From a virus: DNA of 36,486 bases. Of this stretch, positions 12,022-19,891 are shown in pieces. Under the pieces are notes generated by a model. That model was not told the DNA's origin, did not search any database, and was given only the letters and a program-made list of their open reading frames with translations. Every line of letters begins with the position of its first letter. Positions within the stretch are counted from its first letter, which is position 1. The position numbers were made by a program, and so were the translations under genes. The DNA is taken from IMG/VR virus record IMGVR_UViG_3300031825_000051, positions 1-36,486 of that record, one strand, 5' to 3'.

Positions 12022-13970
12022 GTCGGCATAGGCGCCGATCTGGACCAGGGCTGCTTCTTGGCGAGGCCCGTCTCGCGCTTGATGCGGTCCTCGGCATCGA
12101 TTTTGGGATTGGCCGCCAGCTCGGCCTGCAGCTTGGCGATCTCCGCTTGCTTCTGCCCATAGTCGTTCAGCGCATTGGACAGCTGGGCGATGGCGTTGCC
12201 GGCCTCGCCGAACGAGTCTTTGAGGGCGTCGCCGAAAGACTGCGCCTTCGAAGGATCCAGGTAGGTGTCAATGTCCTTCAGGGTCTGCAGGCCCGCGATC
12301 TGCTGGCGCTCATCGATCTGTTGTCCGATGGCCTTGTGGGTGTCCGACCCAGGCACCAGGCGCGACCGCTTTTCGTTCAACCGGGCGATCGCCACGAGTT
12401 CCACTGCAGCAGCCAGCGTGATGTTCTGGCGCTCCGCCATGCGCATGGCATCCACTTCATCACGCAGCGCCTCCTTGCGCTCGACCAGAGATCGCAGCGC
12501 CTGGTCATAGCCAACGGCGAGGTCGCGCAGGGCGGCGGCCGACTGGTCGTAGTCGGTGTTGCGCGCCTGCTGGCGCTGGGTGGCAATTTGCTTGGCGAGT
12601 TCGAGTTCGCTGCGCTGGATCTGGACCAGCTCGGTCTTGTGGGCCGAGGCCGCGAGGTCTGCCGCCACCTGGGCACGCTGCGCGGCCGTTGCCGCCGTCT
12701 TGGCGTGGCCCAGATCCTCGAGCACCTTCGCCGCGAACTTCTCTTCTTCGGTCAGCTCGCGGCCAGACTCCAGCTCTTGCTTGGACAGGTTGATGCGTTC
12801 GCGGATCCGCTTGATCAGCTTGTCGTACTCGGACTCGGCGTCACCCGCGCCGGGCGACTTGATCTGCGGCCCCTTAGCTCGTGCCGCTTCCGCCGCCGCT
12901 GCGGCGGCTTTCGCCTTGGCCTCTTCGCCATCCAACATGGCCGCGTAGTTGCGGTGAACAGCGATCTCTTTATTGAGCGCGGCCAGGCGTTTGGTGAGCC
13001 TCTTCTCATTCGCCTCGTCGCCCCGCGCACGCGCCTTGTCCAGCGCGTTCTGCGTTCCGAGGATCTGGTCGGTGAGGTCGACAATCGCGACGTTGGCCTT
13101 GTGCCTGTCGTCGCCGCCGAACAGCGACTGCATACCCTCCCTGATCACGCCGAAGAAGCCCGTGCCGGCAATGGACGCTTCCGCCATCTTTTGCATGGCC
13201 TTGCTCAAACCATCGACCAGATCGGTGGCGAGTGAGATCGCGAGCTTGTCCGCCTGCGTCTTGAGCCGCGTGAGGTTGTCGTTGAACTCCTCGGCGCTCT
13301 TGGCAAAATCGCCGCTGATGGTGAGGCCCAGGCGATTCGCCTCCTCCATCATTCCACGGATGGCCCCGCTTCCGCCATTCAGCAGCGGGATCATCTCGTC
13401 ACCAGCCTTGCCCATCAGCTTGATCGCGTTCTCTTGCTTGCCCGCCCCGTCGCCGTGCTTCGCGTAGGCGTCCGCGATCTTCAGCATGACGGCCTCGGTG
13501 CCCTTGCCGAGATCCGCTGTCGTGATGCCCAGCGCCTTGAACACCGCGATCTTTTCCTTGTCGCCCGCCAGGCCCTGCGCGATGCTGACGTTCAGCTTGC
13601 GCACGCTCGTGCTGAAGGACTCGTTGGAGACATCCGACAGCTTGGCCGCATAGCGCCACTGCGACAGCGTCTCGGTGCTCAAGCCGGTTTTCTGGCTGAG
13701 TTTGTTGAGCTCGTCGCCGAGGTCGATCGCGCCCTTGATCAAGTGCGCGAATGCCCCGACGCTGATGCCGGCGACCAGCGAAGCGCCGATGCCCGTGACC
13801 GAGCGCACCACGCTCTGCTTGGCGGACTCCATGGCGCGCGACGCCTGGTCGGCGGCGGTCTGCACACGCTTGCCATAGGCGAGCGCCTGCTGGCCGCTCT
13901 TGTCCAGGCCCTGGGTGTACTGCGCGTACTCCAGCGCCAGCTTGACGACGAGGCTGCCGAGGGCTGACAT
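11856..13970 (-). CDS. tape measure protein, N-terminal part (separated by frameshift)
   Basis: ATG at 13970 lies 5 nt beyond the GT chaperone stop, the canonical place of a tape measure gene. About 640 codons are genuine; from about 12051 to the stop at 11856 the translation becomes Arg/Ser/Pro-rich out-of-frame sequence. Residues 5-60 fit the tape measure N-terminus (VVKLALEYAQYTQGLDKSG), followed by a hydrophobic patch near 55-80 and long charged helices. Restoring one base at 12051 (GGGCTG to GGGCCTG on the + strand) joins ...LAKKQ to ALVQIGAYADMAGAAKG and gives one protein of about 1903 aa. By the usual 0.15 nm per residue, that predicts a tail near 285 nm. Confidence 0.85.
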   Translation of the reverse strand: MSALGSLVVKLALEYAQYTQGLDKSGQQALAYGKRVQTAADQASRAMESAKQSVVRSVTGIGASLVAGISVGAFAHLIKGAIDLGDELNKLSQKTGLSTETLSQWRYAAKLSDVSNESFSTSVRKLNVSIAQGLAGDKEKIAVFKALGITTADLGKGTEAVMLKIADAYAKHGDGAGKQENAIKLMGKAGDEMIPLLNGGSGAIRGMMEEANRLGLTISGDFAKSAEEFNDNLTRLKTQADKLAISLATDLVDGLSKAMQKMAEASIAGTGFFGVIREGMQSLFGGDDRHKANVAIVDLTDQILGTQNALDKARARGDEANEKRLTKRLAALNKEIAVHRNYAAMLDGEEAKAKAAAAAAEAARAKGPQIKSPGAGDAESEYDKLIKRIRERINLSKQELESGRELTEEEKFAAKVLEDLGHAKTAATAAQRAQVAADLAASAHKTELVQIQRSELELAKQIATQRQQARNTDYDQSAAALRDLAVGYDQALRSLVERKEALRDEVDAMRMAERQNITLAAAVELVAIARLNEKRSRLVPGSDTHKAIGQQIDERQQIAGLQTLKDIDTYLDPSKAQSFGDALKDSFGEAGNAIAQLSNALNDYGQKQAEIAKLQAELAANPKIDAEDRIKRETGLAKKQPWSRSAPMPTWPVRPRASSRKTPRATRRSKRRRRPSGSTSSPCPPRPWSRRSSSRRRKSPRTSL

Positions 13971-13975
13971 GGTGG

Positions 13976-14721
13976 TTACTCCGCTTTCTTTTCTTCAGCC
14001 AGCTCACGGTCGGCATCGAGCACGGCCCGCTCCATGAGCTGTAGGTGGTGAAAAATTTCCTGCTGCCGGCGGCTGCGCTTGCGCGGCCACCCGAGCACGA
14101 CCTCGACACCGGGCAGGTCCAGCCCGGCGCGCACGCCCTCGAGGCCGCGATAGCGCCACTGCAGGCACACGGCACTGAACGCCATCCAGGTGGGCCAGTT
14201 CTCCGGCCACAGCTCGAAGTCGTCGTCGACCTCGTCGGCCTTGGCGTGCTCTTGAATCAGGGCTTCCGCCTTGGCGATCGCCTCGGTCGGAGCACCCCAG
14301 ATGCGCATCTGCGCAACAATGTCGGCGTCGATCGTCAGCCGGCCGGGTGCGGCCTTGCGGTACCGCACCCCCGCCCAATGCCGGGCTGCGTCTGTCAGTT
14401 TTTTTCGTTCGCCTTGTGGACGCCGTGCCAGAACGCGGTGGCCGCCGCCGTCACCGCCTCGGGCAGCCGCAGGAACGCGTCGAGGTTCTCCGGGTTGAAC
14501 GGCACGTCGTTGCCGCTGTCGTCGACCAGCTCGCGCCAACCGGACAGCTTGCGCGTGAGCAGCTCGGCGCCGGTCAGGCCGGAGAGCTCCTTCAACTCGT
14601 CGGTGGTCGCGCGATGGAACGAGACCATCATCGTGCTGCGGTCCCAGCCGCCCTTGTCGTTGGCGGTGTTGATCGTGAGCTTGGCGGAAAAAGTGGGGGT
14701 CTGCGTGAGTTTGAAAGCCAT
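13976..14721 (-). CDS. tail assembly chaperone GT fusion (via -1 frameshift)
   Basis: Predicted about 248 aa. Ribosomes read the G frame from ATG 14721 to the slippery site A AAA AAC (14398-14404), slip back one base, and continue through KKLTDAARHW to the TAA at 13976. The T part (about 139 aa) contains the DUF1799-like pattern FELWPENWPTWMAF and ends in charged helices (ELAEEKKAE). In lambda and many siphophages G and GT bind the tape measure and bring tail tube protein to it. There is no good ribosome site to start the T frame alone, which supports the fusion. The gene lies directly upstream of the tape measure. Confidence 0.88.
14395..14721 (-). CDS. tail assembly chaperone G
   Basis: 108 aa, the product of normal termination at TGA 14395-14397. 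It begins MAFKLTQTPTFSAKLTI, a beta-strand start common to G-type chaperones of this tail family, and ends with a helical domain (LPEAVTAAATAFWHGVH). It is the unshifted product of the locus that also yields GT. The start is fixed by an AGAGAGATCCACC leader and by the tail tube terminator-like hairpin just upstream. Confidence 0.86.
   Translation of the reverse strand: MAFKLTQTPTFSAKLTINTANDKGGWDRSTMMVSFHRATTDELKELSGLTGAELLTRKLSGWRELVDDSGNDVPFNPENLDAFLRLPEAVTAAATAFWHGVHKANEKN
14398..14404 (-). promoter_or_regulatory. programmed -1 ribosomal frameshift site A AAA AAC
   Basis: The minus strand reads GAA AAA AAC TGA in the G frame. A AAA AAC is a classic X XXY YYZ slippery heptamer, placed immediately before the G stop, and the -1 frame is open for another 139 codons of sensible protein. 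This is the conserved arrangement of tail chaperone genes. No attempt was made to define a downstream stimulatory structure. Confidence 0.9.
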
Positions 14722-14757
14722 GGTGGATCTCTCTAGGGTTGGAGTGGGGAAAGTGAA

Positions 14758-14789
14758 GCGGCCCGCCACCGTTGCCGATGGCGGGCCGC
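14758..14789 (-). other. intercistronic hairpin after the tail tube gene
   Basis: Perfect 11-bp stem GCGGCCCGCCA / TGGCGGGCCGC with a 10-nt loop, 22 nt past the tail tube stop. There is no T run, so it is more likely an mRNA stabiliser or partial terminator than a full stop. Confidence 0.7.
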
Positions 14790-14810
14790 ATGCCGCGGTG
14801 GCCGGGGGAC

Positions 14811-15299
14811 TCAGGTGAACTTGATCGAGATCTCGTCGTTGCCGGTGTCGGGCAGGATGCCGAACGAGGTGCTCAGCATCGCGATCTCGTCCTCGGCCTG
14901 GAGCGTGGGCTCCTGGTCGATCTGGATCTTGGGCATGTCGATGGTGACGATGTTCCCCGCCACGGTGCCGTGGACGATCTGCAGCGCGCCCTCGGTGCCG
15001 TCCTTGACGACGCTGCCCCAGTTCTTCTCGGCCACCGTGGTCAGCTCGAACACGCAGGTGCCGCGCGGCTTGCGGTCCGGGCTGGCCGGCGCCGCGAAGT
15101 TGAACAGCTCGCGCCAGACCAGCGCGTTGGCGAGATCGAAGCCGAAGGCGCTGGTGCGGGCGGCCAGGCCGAAGAACGTGAAGGTGGGCGTGTTGATCTT
15201 GCCCATGGTCTTCGGCGTGACGAAGTCCGTGAAATCGGCATCGTTGGGCAGCGGGGTGTCCGTGATGTCGGAGTACTCGCCCAGCACGTCGAAGCGTTC
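14811..15299 (-). pseudogene. major tail tube protein, C-terminal segment
   Basis: About 161 codons, from RFDVLGEYSDITDTPLP to the TGA at 14811. It matches the C-terminal half of siphophage tail tube proteins: LPNDADFTDFVTP, the TFFGLAARTSAF strand, NALVWRELFN and a final ISIKF. A GTG at 15287 is the first possible start in this frame but has no ribosome site, and the sequence upstream is foreign to the frame because an inverted block (about 15300-15721) was placed here. Joined after the segment at 15722-15844 and the segment at 15394-15720, it completes a tube protein of about 311 residues. Confidence 0.82.
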
Positions 15300-15301
15300 G
15301 T

Positions 15302-15370
15302 GACCCTATCACCGGAGTTCGGCGGCCCGCCGGTGAGTCAGAAGTCGGGCCTGCCGATCCCTCCCTGTAA
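15302..15370 (+). pseudogene. displaced C-terminus of the small gene upstream of the tail tube
   Basis: On the + strand, GAC CCT ATC ACC reads DPITGVRRPAGESEVG... and ends in TAA at 15368-15370. It continues naturally from the ...YTGLGGRY end of the fragment at 15847-16065, which lies on the minus strand about 480 bp away. Twenty-four nt later comes AAGAAAGGA and the ATG of the tail tube N-terminus, the normal gene spacing. Both pieces are therefore in correct order with each other but inverted and displaced as a block. Confidence 0.72.
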
Positions 15371-15393
15371 CCACTGAAGAAAGGACCACCACC

Positions 15394-15720
15394 ATGTCCG
15401 GCAAATCCATGAAGAAAATGCTGTTGCTCGCGAAGCTCGAGGCGGTGCCCGGCACCGACATCGTGCCCGCCGCGGCGACCAACGCCATCCTGTGCCGAGG
15501 GCTCATGCCGTCGATCATCACGGCCGAGTTCGCCGAGCGCAACAACATCAAGCCCCACAAGGGCAACGACCGCAAGCTGGCGGTCGGCGTGCACCGCCGC
15601 TTCCAGTTCGAGGTCGAGATCGCCGGCTCCGGTGTCGCGGGCACCGCGCCCGCCTGGGGCCTCCTGCTGCAGATCTGCGGTTTCTCGGAAACCGTCACGC
15701 TCGCGACGGACGTGGTGTAC
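15394..15720 (+). pseudogene. major tail tube protein, N-terminal segment (inverted)
   Basis: 109 codons from ATG 15394, preceded by AAGAAAGGA. The start MSGKSMKKMLLLAKLEAVPG and the block AGSGVAGTAPAWGLLLQICG are typical of the N-terminal half of tail tube proteins of this type (kinase-like K-E-x-x-x-G-T, then G-A-G-x-AGTAPAWG). It is on the + strand, opposite to every neighbouring structural gene. After residue 109 (TDVVY) the frame runs into the antisense of the middle segment and soon stops at 15750. As it stands it can give only a truncated product. Confidence 0.82.
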
Positions 15721-15721
15721 G

Positions 15722-15844
15722 GTACGGAATGCCCTTCGGGTCCATCTTGAACGAGACCGTGCCCTTGGCGTAGGTGAGCCGGAAACGCACACCATCCAGG
15801 AACGCGTACAGGCTGGCGGTGGGTTCGCCCTCGCTGACCAGGTC
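15722..15844 (-). pseudogene. major tail tube protein, middle segment
   Basis: 41 codons on the minus strand: DLVSEGEPTASLYAFLDGVR, then a GTVSFKMDPKGIPY block. This is the pattern ...ATLYxYLDGVxHxLTGARGTVSxxxxxKGIP... of tube proteins, which normally follows the TDVVY end of the N-terminal segment. Here it is joined directly to the end of the upstream small gene (junction GGTAC-GCGACC) on one side and to the inverted N-terminal segment on the other. It has no start of its own. Confidence 0.75.
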
Positions 15845-15846
15845 GC

Positions 15847-16065
15847 GTACCGGCCGCCCAGGCCGGTGTATTGGTCGCGGGGCGGTATGGGGCGCACGAC
15901 GGCGCGGTCCAGCGCGGGCAGGTCAGCGGGCGACAGCACGGCACCGCTGAAGCGCTGCGCCTCGCCCGGCAACAGGGCGCGGTCGGCGCTGGCGTGCTGT
16001 CCAGGCGTTTGCACGGCCAGGCCGGCGCCCGCCTCCTCGGTGGAAGCGGTAGGCTTTTTCTTCAT
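15847..16065 (-). pseudogene. small tail-region protein, N-terminal segment
   Basis: 73 codons from ATG 16065 (GGAGACCACC upstream), MKKKPTASTEEAGAGLAV ... PRDQYTGLGGRY. Beyond residue 73 the frame enters the tail tube middle segment out of frame. Its true end (DPITGVRRPAGESE...) lies inverted at 15302-15370, so the intact protein would have about 97 residues. Such small proteins ending in a GGRYVRDPxTGVRRP motif occur between the tail completion and tube genes; their role is not known to me. Confidence 0.7.
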
Positions 16066-16079
16066 GGTGGTCTCCAGGG

Positions 16080-16448
16080 TTACAGGCGGGAGGTGCGCAA
16101 CCGCACCGTCACGAACCGGGCATAGACCTGGGCGTCGCCTTCGTAGTCGGCGTCGCCGGAGTCCTCTTCGAACATGTAGGCGTCCATCGCCTCGAGTGCC
16201 GCGCGGATCGGGCCCGCACCGTCCGCCGGCAAGAGGGCGTCCAGCGCCTCGACGGTGGCGGCGAGCACCACCACGTTCACCTCGTGCTGGCTGTACGCGC
16301 CCGCGCCACCGGCCGCCCAGCCAGGCTCGGGCGCGCTGTCGATCTCGAACACCGCCGCCGGCCACGTCGGGTTCGGTGGCAGCTCGGTGGCCCAGGTGTT
16401 CGCAAGCGCGGGCGTCAGCGCCGCGTTCACGGCCTCGTGGATGGTCAT
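16080..16448 (-). CDS. tail completion / terminator protein (DUF3168-like)
   Basis: 122 aa. The start MTIHEAVNAALTPALANTWA, the PAAVFEI strand and an acidic C-terminal half that ends in a beta strand (VYARFVTVRLR) fit the DUF3168/gpU-like tail terminator family, which caps the tail tube and joins it to the head. It overlaps the HK97 gp10-like gene by ATGA. The family usually has 120-140 residues. Confidence 0.8.
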   Translation of the reverse strand: MTIHEAVNAALTPALANTWATELPPNPTWPAAVFEIDSAPEPGWAAGGAGAYSQHEVNVVVLAATVEALDALLPADGAGPIRAALEAMDAYMFEEDSGDADYEGDAQVYARFVTVRLRTSRL

Positions 16449-18532: not shown

Positions 18533-19891
18533 TTAAGCGGCGATCTTCAGCAGCTTGATGGCCTCGAAGTTCTTGACGCCACCGCCCGAGCGGCGGCGGA
18601 AGTTGAACTTCGTCTTGCCCTTGGCCGTGACGTTGTCGCGGATCAGGACGGTACCGGAGCGGCGGACCACCACATACCCGCGCTTGAAGTCGCCATAGGC
18701 GATGGCCAGCGCATCGGCTGCGACGATCGGCATGTTGTCGTCGGTCTCGACCGGGCTGCCCAGCAGGCGACCGCCGAAGCCGGCGAGCGGATCCGGCTGC
18801 CACAGGTAGAAGTTGCCCGAGCCGTCCTTCATCTGGCGCACCAGAGCCAGCGTGGCGTCGGCCATCACGAACGACGCGCCAGGACGGTAGGCCGACTTCA
18901 GCGCGTGCTGCAGGCTGATCAGCGCATCGCCCGGGTTGGCTGCCGCGAAGCCCGCCGCGCCGCCCGACTTGATGTAGCCCAGGCTGCCCCAGGCGTAGTC
19001 GGCGTTGGCCACCATGTCGTACATGGTGATCCCGCGCGCGCCACCGACACCGGTGCCGACGCAGAACTCCGCGCCTTCCATCTCGGCGAACGCAACGCCG
19101 GCCTCTTCAGCCAGGTCAGACTCGAGGTCGATGATCGCGTCCTCGAGCGTGGCGTTGTGGACCCAGGGCTCGGCCTCGGATTCGTAGGCCGTGAACTCCA
19201 GCTCGGCGAACTTCGGGTTGTCCGTCTCGCCGCCGGTGGCGCCCGGGCCGACACGGCGTGCCGTCATGCCCTGCTTCTTGACGATCTTCTTGTAGCTCTC
19301 GCTGCCGATCGTCTTGTTGTCGGCCAGACGGCCCACGGCGGACACGACACCGACAACGCGGTCGATCTGCGTGTCCATCTCGGGCAGCACCAGGAAGCCA
19401 CCGTCCGGCGCCGAGCCGCTGTTCATCGCCTTCCTCTGCAGCTCTTCCAGGCCGTTGTCCTGGCCCTTGCGCACCCAGGCGGAGAACCCCTGCTTGTAGG
19501 CCACCATCTCGGGCGACAGCGACTTCTTGTCGTTGGGATCGTTCTGCGGACGCTGAGCCTTCTTGGCCAGCTCGACCAGGTCGTCGTTCATCTTCTTGAA
19601 GTCGGCGTTCATCTTGTCGACGGACGCCTGCAGGTCGCCGACCGCCTTCCCCTCGGCCTTTGCCTTGAGCAGCTCGTCGTTCTTCTTCATGAACTCGCCC
19701 CAGGTCTCGCCCTGCTTCTTCACGAGTTCCTTGATCTCAGCGACCTCGGTGTCGCCGAGCGCCATGGGCATCATGCCGATGCCGGCCAGCGCCTCGGGCG
19801 GGATGATGGGATAGCCCGCGATGGCGCAGACGGCCATGAGGGCGACAGCGGCCACGAGGACCAGGCTGATGTTTTGTCGAGTGAGTTTCAC
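18533..19891 (-). CDS. major capsid protein, HK97 fold
   Basis: 452 aa, longer than HK97 gp5 (385). Residues 9-31 form one hydrophobic stretch (ISLVLVAAVALMAVCAIAGY), unusual for a capsid protein. Residues 48-112 are a charged coiled coil, the delta domain (scaffold), cut off by the protease during maturation. The capsid body follows: GSAPDGGFLVLPEMD near 163 is the typical N-arm/E-loop entry, then AEPWVHNATLEDA, a GGARGITMYD block and a final GDFKRGYVVVRRSGTVLIRDN. It lies between protease and cement genes. The family is certain; the reason for the hydrophobic start is open. Confidence 0.95.
   Translation of the reverse strand: MKLTRQNISLVLVAAVALMAVCAIAGYPIIPPEALAGIGMMPMALGDTEVAEIKELVKKQGETWGEFMKKNDELLKAKAEGKAVGDLQASVDKMNADFKKMNDDLVELAKKAQRPQNDPNDKKSLSPEMVAYKQGFSAWVRKGQDNGLEELQRKAMNSGSAPDGGFLVLPEMDTQIDRVVGVVSAVGRLADNKTIGSESYKKIVKKQGMTARRVGPGATGGETDNPKFAELEFTAYESEAEPWVHNATLEDAIIDLESDLAEEAGVAFAEMEGAEFCVGTGVGGARGITMYDMVANADYAWGSLGYIKSGGAAGFAAANPGDALISLQHALKSAYRPGASFVMADATLALVRQMKDGSGNFYLWQPDPLAGFGGRLLGSPVETDDNMPIVAADALAIAYGDFKRGYVVVRRSGTVLIRDNVTAKGKTKFNFRRRSGGGVKNFEAIKLLKIAA

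Follow-up and report, generated by a model that had tools for sequence, protein, structure and literature searches.

We confirm that, in this virus record, a shuffled stretch of about 0.55 kb destroys both the tail tube gene and its small upstream neighbor. The record, which is drawn from a large uncurated collection, is 36,486 bases long and is referred to below, at its full length, as the window. The explanation that we favor, with a probability of about 0.52, is a three-break rearrangement by breakage and end-joining in the real DNA of a degenerating prophage, giving the scrambled tail tube and small gene. We infer that the event hit real DNA and did not arise in a library or an assembly.

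The two genes are present in the window as the following five pieces, all of which are readable without a stop:

15847–16065, minus strand: small gene N-terminus, 73 codons, ending in GLGGRY; matches the locus L155 small gene with 54% identity in 27 residues
15721–15844, minus strand: tail tube middle, 41 aa (DLVSEGEPTASLYAFLDGVRFRLTYAKGTVSFKMDPKGIPY), displaced; 47–61% identity to the residues right after the N-terminal part in loci L140 and L155–L158
15394–15720, plus strand: tail tube N-terminus, 109 codons, inverted; up to 66% identity to relatives, and supported by a codon-usage HMM
15302–15370, plus strand: small gene C-terminus, 22 codons and a stop (DPITGVRRPAGESEVGPADPSL, then stop), inverted; DPITG follows GGRY-xx in L140 (GGRYSRDPITGARTRMPD)
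14811–15299, minus strand: tail tube C-terminus, 162 codons, in place; matches phrog_290, minor tail protein, E 1.5e-10

Read along the minus strand, the order is small gene N-terminus, tube middle, the inverted block of tube N-terminus and small gene C-terminus, and then tube C-terminus. Thus, the window's tail tube has no single uninterrupted reading frame but lies in three pieces on two strands. When the pieces are put back in order, the small gene is restored to about 97 aa and the tail tube to about 312 aa. The codon-usage HMM was trained on the other genes of the window, with the scrambled stretch left out of training. It calls plus-strand coding at 15292–15373 and 15374–15719, and minus-strand coding at 15720–15842 in one frame and at 15843–16080 in another, and between 2.5 and 30 kb the scrambled stretch is the sole strand flip. 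The initial annotation had proposed that two genes are broken and that one and the same move restores both, and this is borne out by the fragments found, by the same flips in the codon HMM, and by the collinear arrangement in relatives.

When the separate tube pieces were used as tblastn queries, the N-terminal, middle and C-terminal pieces were collinear and on one strand wherever they match significantly in relatives, the best being L002 (58%, 42% and 42% identity, respectively). The alignment to intact tail tube proteins that the initial annotation had put forward as a check gives the same picture, in that 65 relatives can be aligned to the joined tube protein through both joints with no stop. 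Closer relatives are the chromosomal loci L140 and L155–L158, where the tube is whole and identity is 58–66% for the N-terminal, 47–61% for the middle and 49–54% for the C-terminal piece. In four of these (L140, L155, L157 and L158), a small gene with the motif GG[RS]Y-xx-DPxTG is located upstream of the tube. The motif reads GGRYSRDPITG in L140 and GGRYIRDPETG in L157, and the corresponding tube motifs of relatives are Y-xx-VSEGEPT and IP-xx-KF; the window pieces match these joints as GGRY / DPITG, VVY / VSEGEPT and GIP / RFDV.

Relatives of the tube N-terminus were found in 40 viral contigs, in 18 phage records, and in 20 members of a set of 399 genomes belonging to the order of a Curvibacter genome, the closest being 58–66% identical. 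One of the genomes, G173, holds three separate tail tube genes (L140, L155 and L157), 60–64% identical to the window's tube N-terminus. In the annotated isolate Rhodobacter phage RcWaterboi, gp45 (the small gene) lies directly before gp46 (the tail tube), followed by the chaperone and tape measure, and the neighborhood is the same as in the window, with capsid upstream and chaperone and tape measure downstream. RcWaterboi and genomes G173 and G609 share with the window the motif-bearing small gene before the tube, and these three along with G406 have a tube of the same protein family. In all four, however, the genes are whole and collinear, in contrast to the window, which has them as fragments on both strands. 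By full-length sequence homology, the window tube falls in the tail tube family of RcWaterboi gp46 (phrog_290-like). Homologues with the window's order as their normal architecture, which the initial annotation had raised as the case against its own reading, were looked for by tblastn and alignment among viral contigs, phage records and bacterial genomes, and none was found. Likewise, the viral contigs and genome contigs gave no nucleotide relative near enough to pin down the exact breaks, and the only phage and plasmid nucleotide matches were 73–78% identical over about 100 bp.

The geometry of the rearrangement can be described with four segments, where A is the small gene N-terminus, B is the small gene C-terminus plus tube N-terminus, C is the tube middle and D is the tube C-terminus. 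In place of the ancestral A B C D, the window has A C −B D, with these joints:

15844–15855: joint 1, small gene N-terminus / tube middle; GTAC at 15847–15850
15717–15727: joint 2, tube middle / inverted tube N-terminus; holds GTACGGTAC
15294–15303: joint 3, inverted small gene C-terminus / tube C-terminus; without GTAC

Because all three adjacencies are new, one inversion is insufficient, and the minimum is two inversions or one inverted transposition, as the initial annotation had also argued. In the closest relatives, two residues (six nt) lie between the anchoring codons at each joint, for 18 nt in total, and the joints in the window hold 8, 4 and 5 nt, or 17 by hand count, a net change of −1 modulo 3. 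No larger loss or duplication is present at the joints. The joint residues differ from those of close relatives (IPVM vs. IPY), so a small number of bases may have been gained or dropped there. The two genes contain no exact repeat longer than an 11-bp direct one, and no inverted repeat is as long; a repeat of this length is too short for a misjoin by a k-mer assembler.

From these observations, we propose that the ancestral stretch would have run from tail completion through small gene, tail tube and assembly chaperone to tape measure. The breaks would have fallen within the small gene, in the tube after about codon 109, and about 41 codons further on. The freed pieces of about 420 and 124 bp would then have been rejoined with their order swapped and the larger one inverted, almost without loss. 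With both genes left fragmentary, no tail tube would be made and tailed particles would not be expected. A tail defect and a faulty record, the outcomes foreseen by the initial annotation, are the realistic ones.

The motif GTAC had been remarked on at or beside two of the joints, and here the position held up but the weight placed on it finds weak support. GTAC occurs at 15847–15850, 15717–15720 and 15722–15725, at the ends of the A, B and C pieces. The motif was chosen post hoc, and it occurs in excess in the window, with 85 copies where dinucleotide shuffles predict 42. Three random points would all carry GTAC with a probability of about 1.5e-5, but any 4-mer is shared by 5.7% of random triples and any 5-mer by 0.45%. 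Since some shared 4-mer is found in about 6% of random triples, GTAC proves no site-specific mechanism and hints only weakly, at best, at microhomology or at cutting close to the motif. Restriction cutting inside GTAC (blunt GT/AC or staggered G/TAC) followed by religation was rejected. Compared by hand, it fails to give the joints seen, two of which would require additional bases and the third a loss.

The three displaced pieces ending in GTAC would be accounted for if programmed or site-specific recombination turned the tube gene off by shuffling segments at GTAC-like sites, but we give this almost no credence, because GTAC is so frequent in the window and a common 4-mer so readily found. 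In addition, the joints are not base-conservative, and protein length differences would shift the count only by multiples of 3, not by the −1 observed. There are no long inverted repeats at the piece ends, inverted exact repeats of at least 11 bp are absent from both genes, and the record, which may be a fragment, has no PF00589 or PF00239 match to a tyrosine or serine recombinase. Programmed inversion was rejected for want of sites, of a recombinase and of relatives with an alternative order. It would strain belief to the same degree to see here a reversible, enzyme-made shuffle at GTAC sites, that is, phase-variable or domesticated silencing of a prophage tail tube gene. Phage tail-fiber inversion systems of the Gin/Cin type invert a segment in the tail gene region, and in this the window resembles them. 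Unlike those systems, the window has no recombinase that we found and no inverted crossover sites, the gene affected is the tube and not the fiber gene, and the rearrangement destroys both genes instead of switching them. Replication template switching in vivo, where copying skips ahead, switches back along the opposite strand and skips ahead again, is described over short ranges in other genomes (PMC7954356), and the GTAC/CGTAC identity at the ends of the small gene N-terminus, tube middle and tube N-terminus could act as microhomology. For no sequence to be lost or duplicated, however, each jump must fall only a few bases from a previous switch point, which is unlikely if the jumps are independent, and we consider this very improbable. 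Serial template switching fits the near-lossless character of the three joints less well than breakage and rejoining of a single molecule.

The remaining alternative is an artefact, either a chimeric template that arose during library making or whole-genome amplification, or a fault in assembly, with the true gene order being normal. We regard this as a serious possibility at a little under even odds. The uncurated origin of the record speaks for it, as does the fact that the window's order is seen in no other record searched and that the collections searched contain no sister sequence. The stop-free fragments give no sign of decay after the event, a multiplying phage requires its tube, and a frameshift in the tape measure gene may itself be a sequence error. 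Amplification chimeras also mostly invert nearby sequence, with 406 of 475 inverted and 337 of those within 10 kb (PMC1855051). Like the window, these chimeras show short-range inverted joining without long repeats. Unlike the window, they are mostly single joints and usually bear an intervening deletion (PMC1855051), whereas the three joints in the window keep practically all of the sequence. The repeats present are also too short to cause a misjoin in assembly. A literature search on viral contig misassembly found nothing directly relevant, and the same was true of a search on break-and-rejoin in phages. On balance, we lean slightly to a lesion in a degenerate prophage over an artefact. In either case, the event would be an ordinary dead-prophage lesion or a record fault, not a new system.

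A prophage is plausible because of a tRNA-Lys at the left edge, an AlpA-like protein whose match is just under its cut-off, and the presence of relatives in chromosomes. The tRNA-Lys (CTT), at 48–123 on the plus strand, lies at the very left edge and shares 96% identity with a Curvibacter MAG tRNA, which suggests that this edge may be host flank. Upstream of it is an apparent 3′ tail of another tRNA. The first 260 bases have no exact repeat of at least 12 nt elsewhere in the window, and no integrase was found in the record, which favors the artefact. That the prophage would be degenerate fits with the closeness of the tRNA-Lys to a chromosomal one and with a second lesion in the tail module:

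12030–12060 (near 12050), minus strand: tape measure frameshift; relatives are uninterrupted (AQA-QIKSYGDMAGAAKGFFKEN)

This frame change may be a mutation or a sequence error. Apart from the two lesions, the structural genes are intact, which is also compatible with a working phage and a faulty record. If the rearrangement is real, it would be a clean example of phage DNA broken at three points and rejoined in shuffled order almost without loss, with the fingerprint of break-and-rejoin and not of replication error. As a caution, an automatic pipeline annotating this stretch would call a truncated tail gene, and on the wrong strand.

The late genes around the scrambled stretch are on the minus strand and run from terminase, portal, protease and capsid (Pfam matches) to small head-tail proteins and then a tail-completion-like protein at 16080–16448 with a weak PF11367 match under its cut-off. 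After the scrambled stretch come a tail assembly chaperone-like gene (14398–14721) and the tape measure gene. The capsid (18533–19891) matches, at 67–70% identity, the loci L128 and L129 from Aquabacterium and Curvibacter MAGs, where a tail module is present with no recognizable tube relative nearby; the head and tail modules would thus come from different neighbors. Near the end of the chaperone gene (14395–14410, minus strand) there is a run, AACGAAAAAA, with an overlapping downstream frame at 13976–14791 (phrog_680), and together these resemble the programmed frameshift typical of tail assembly chaperones.
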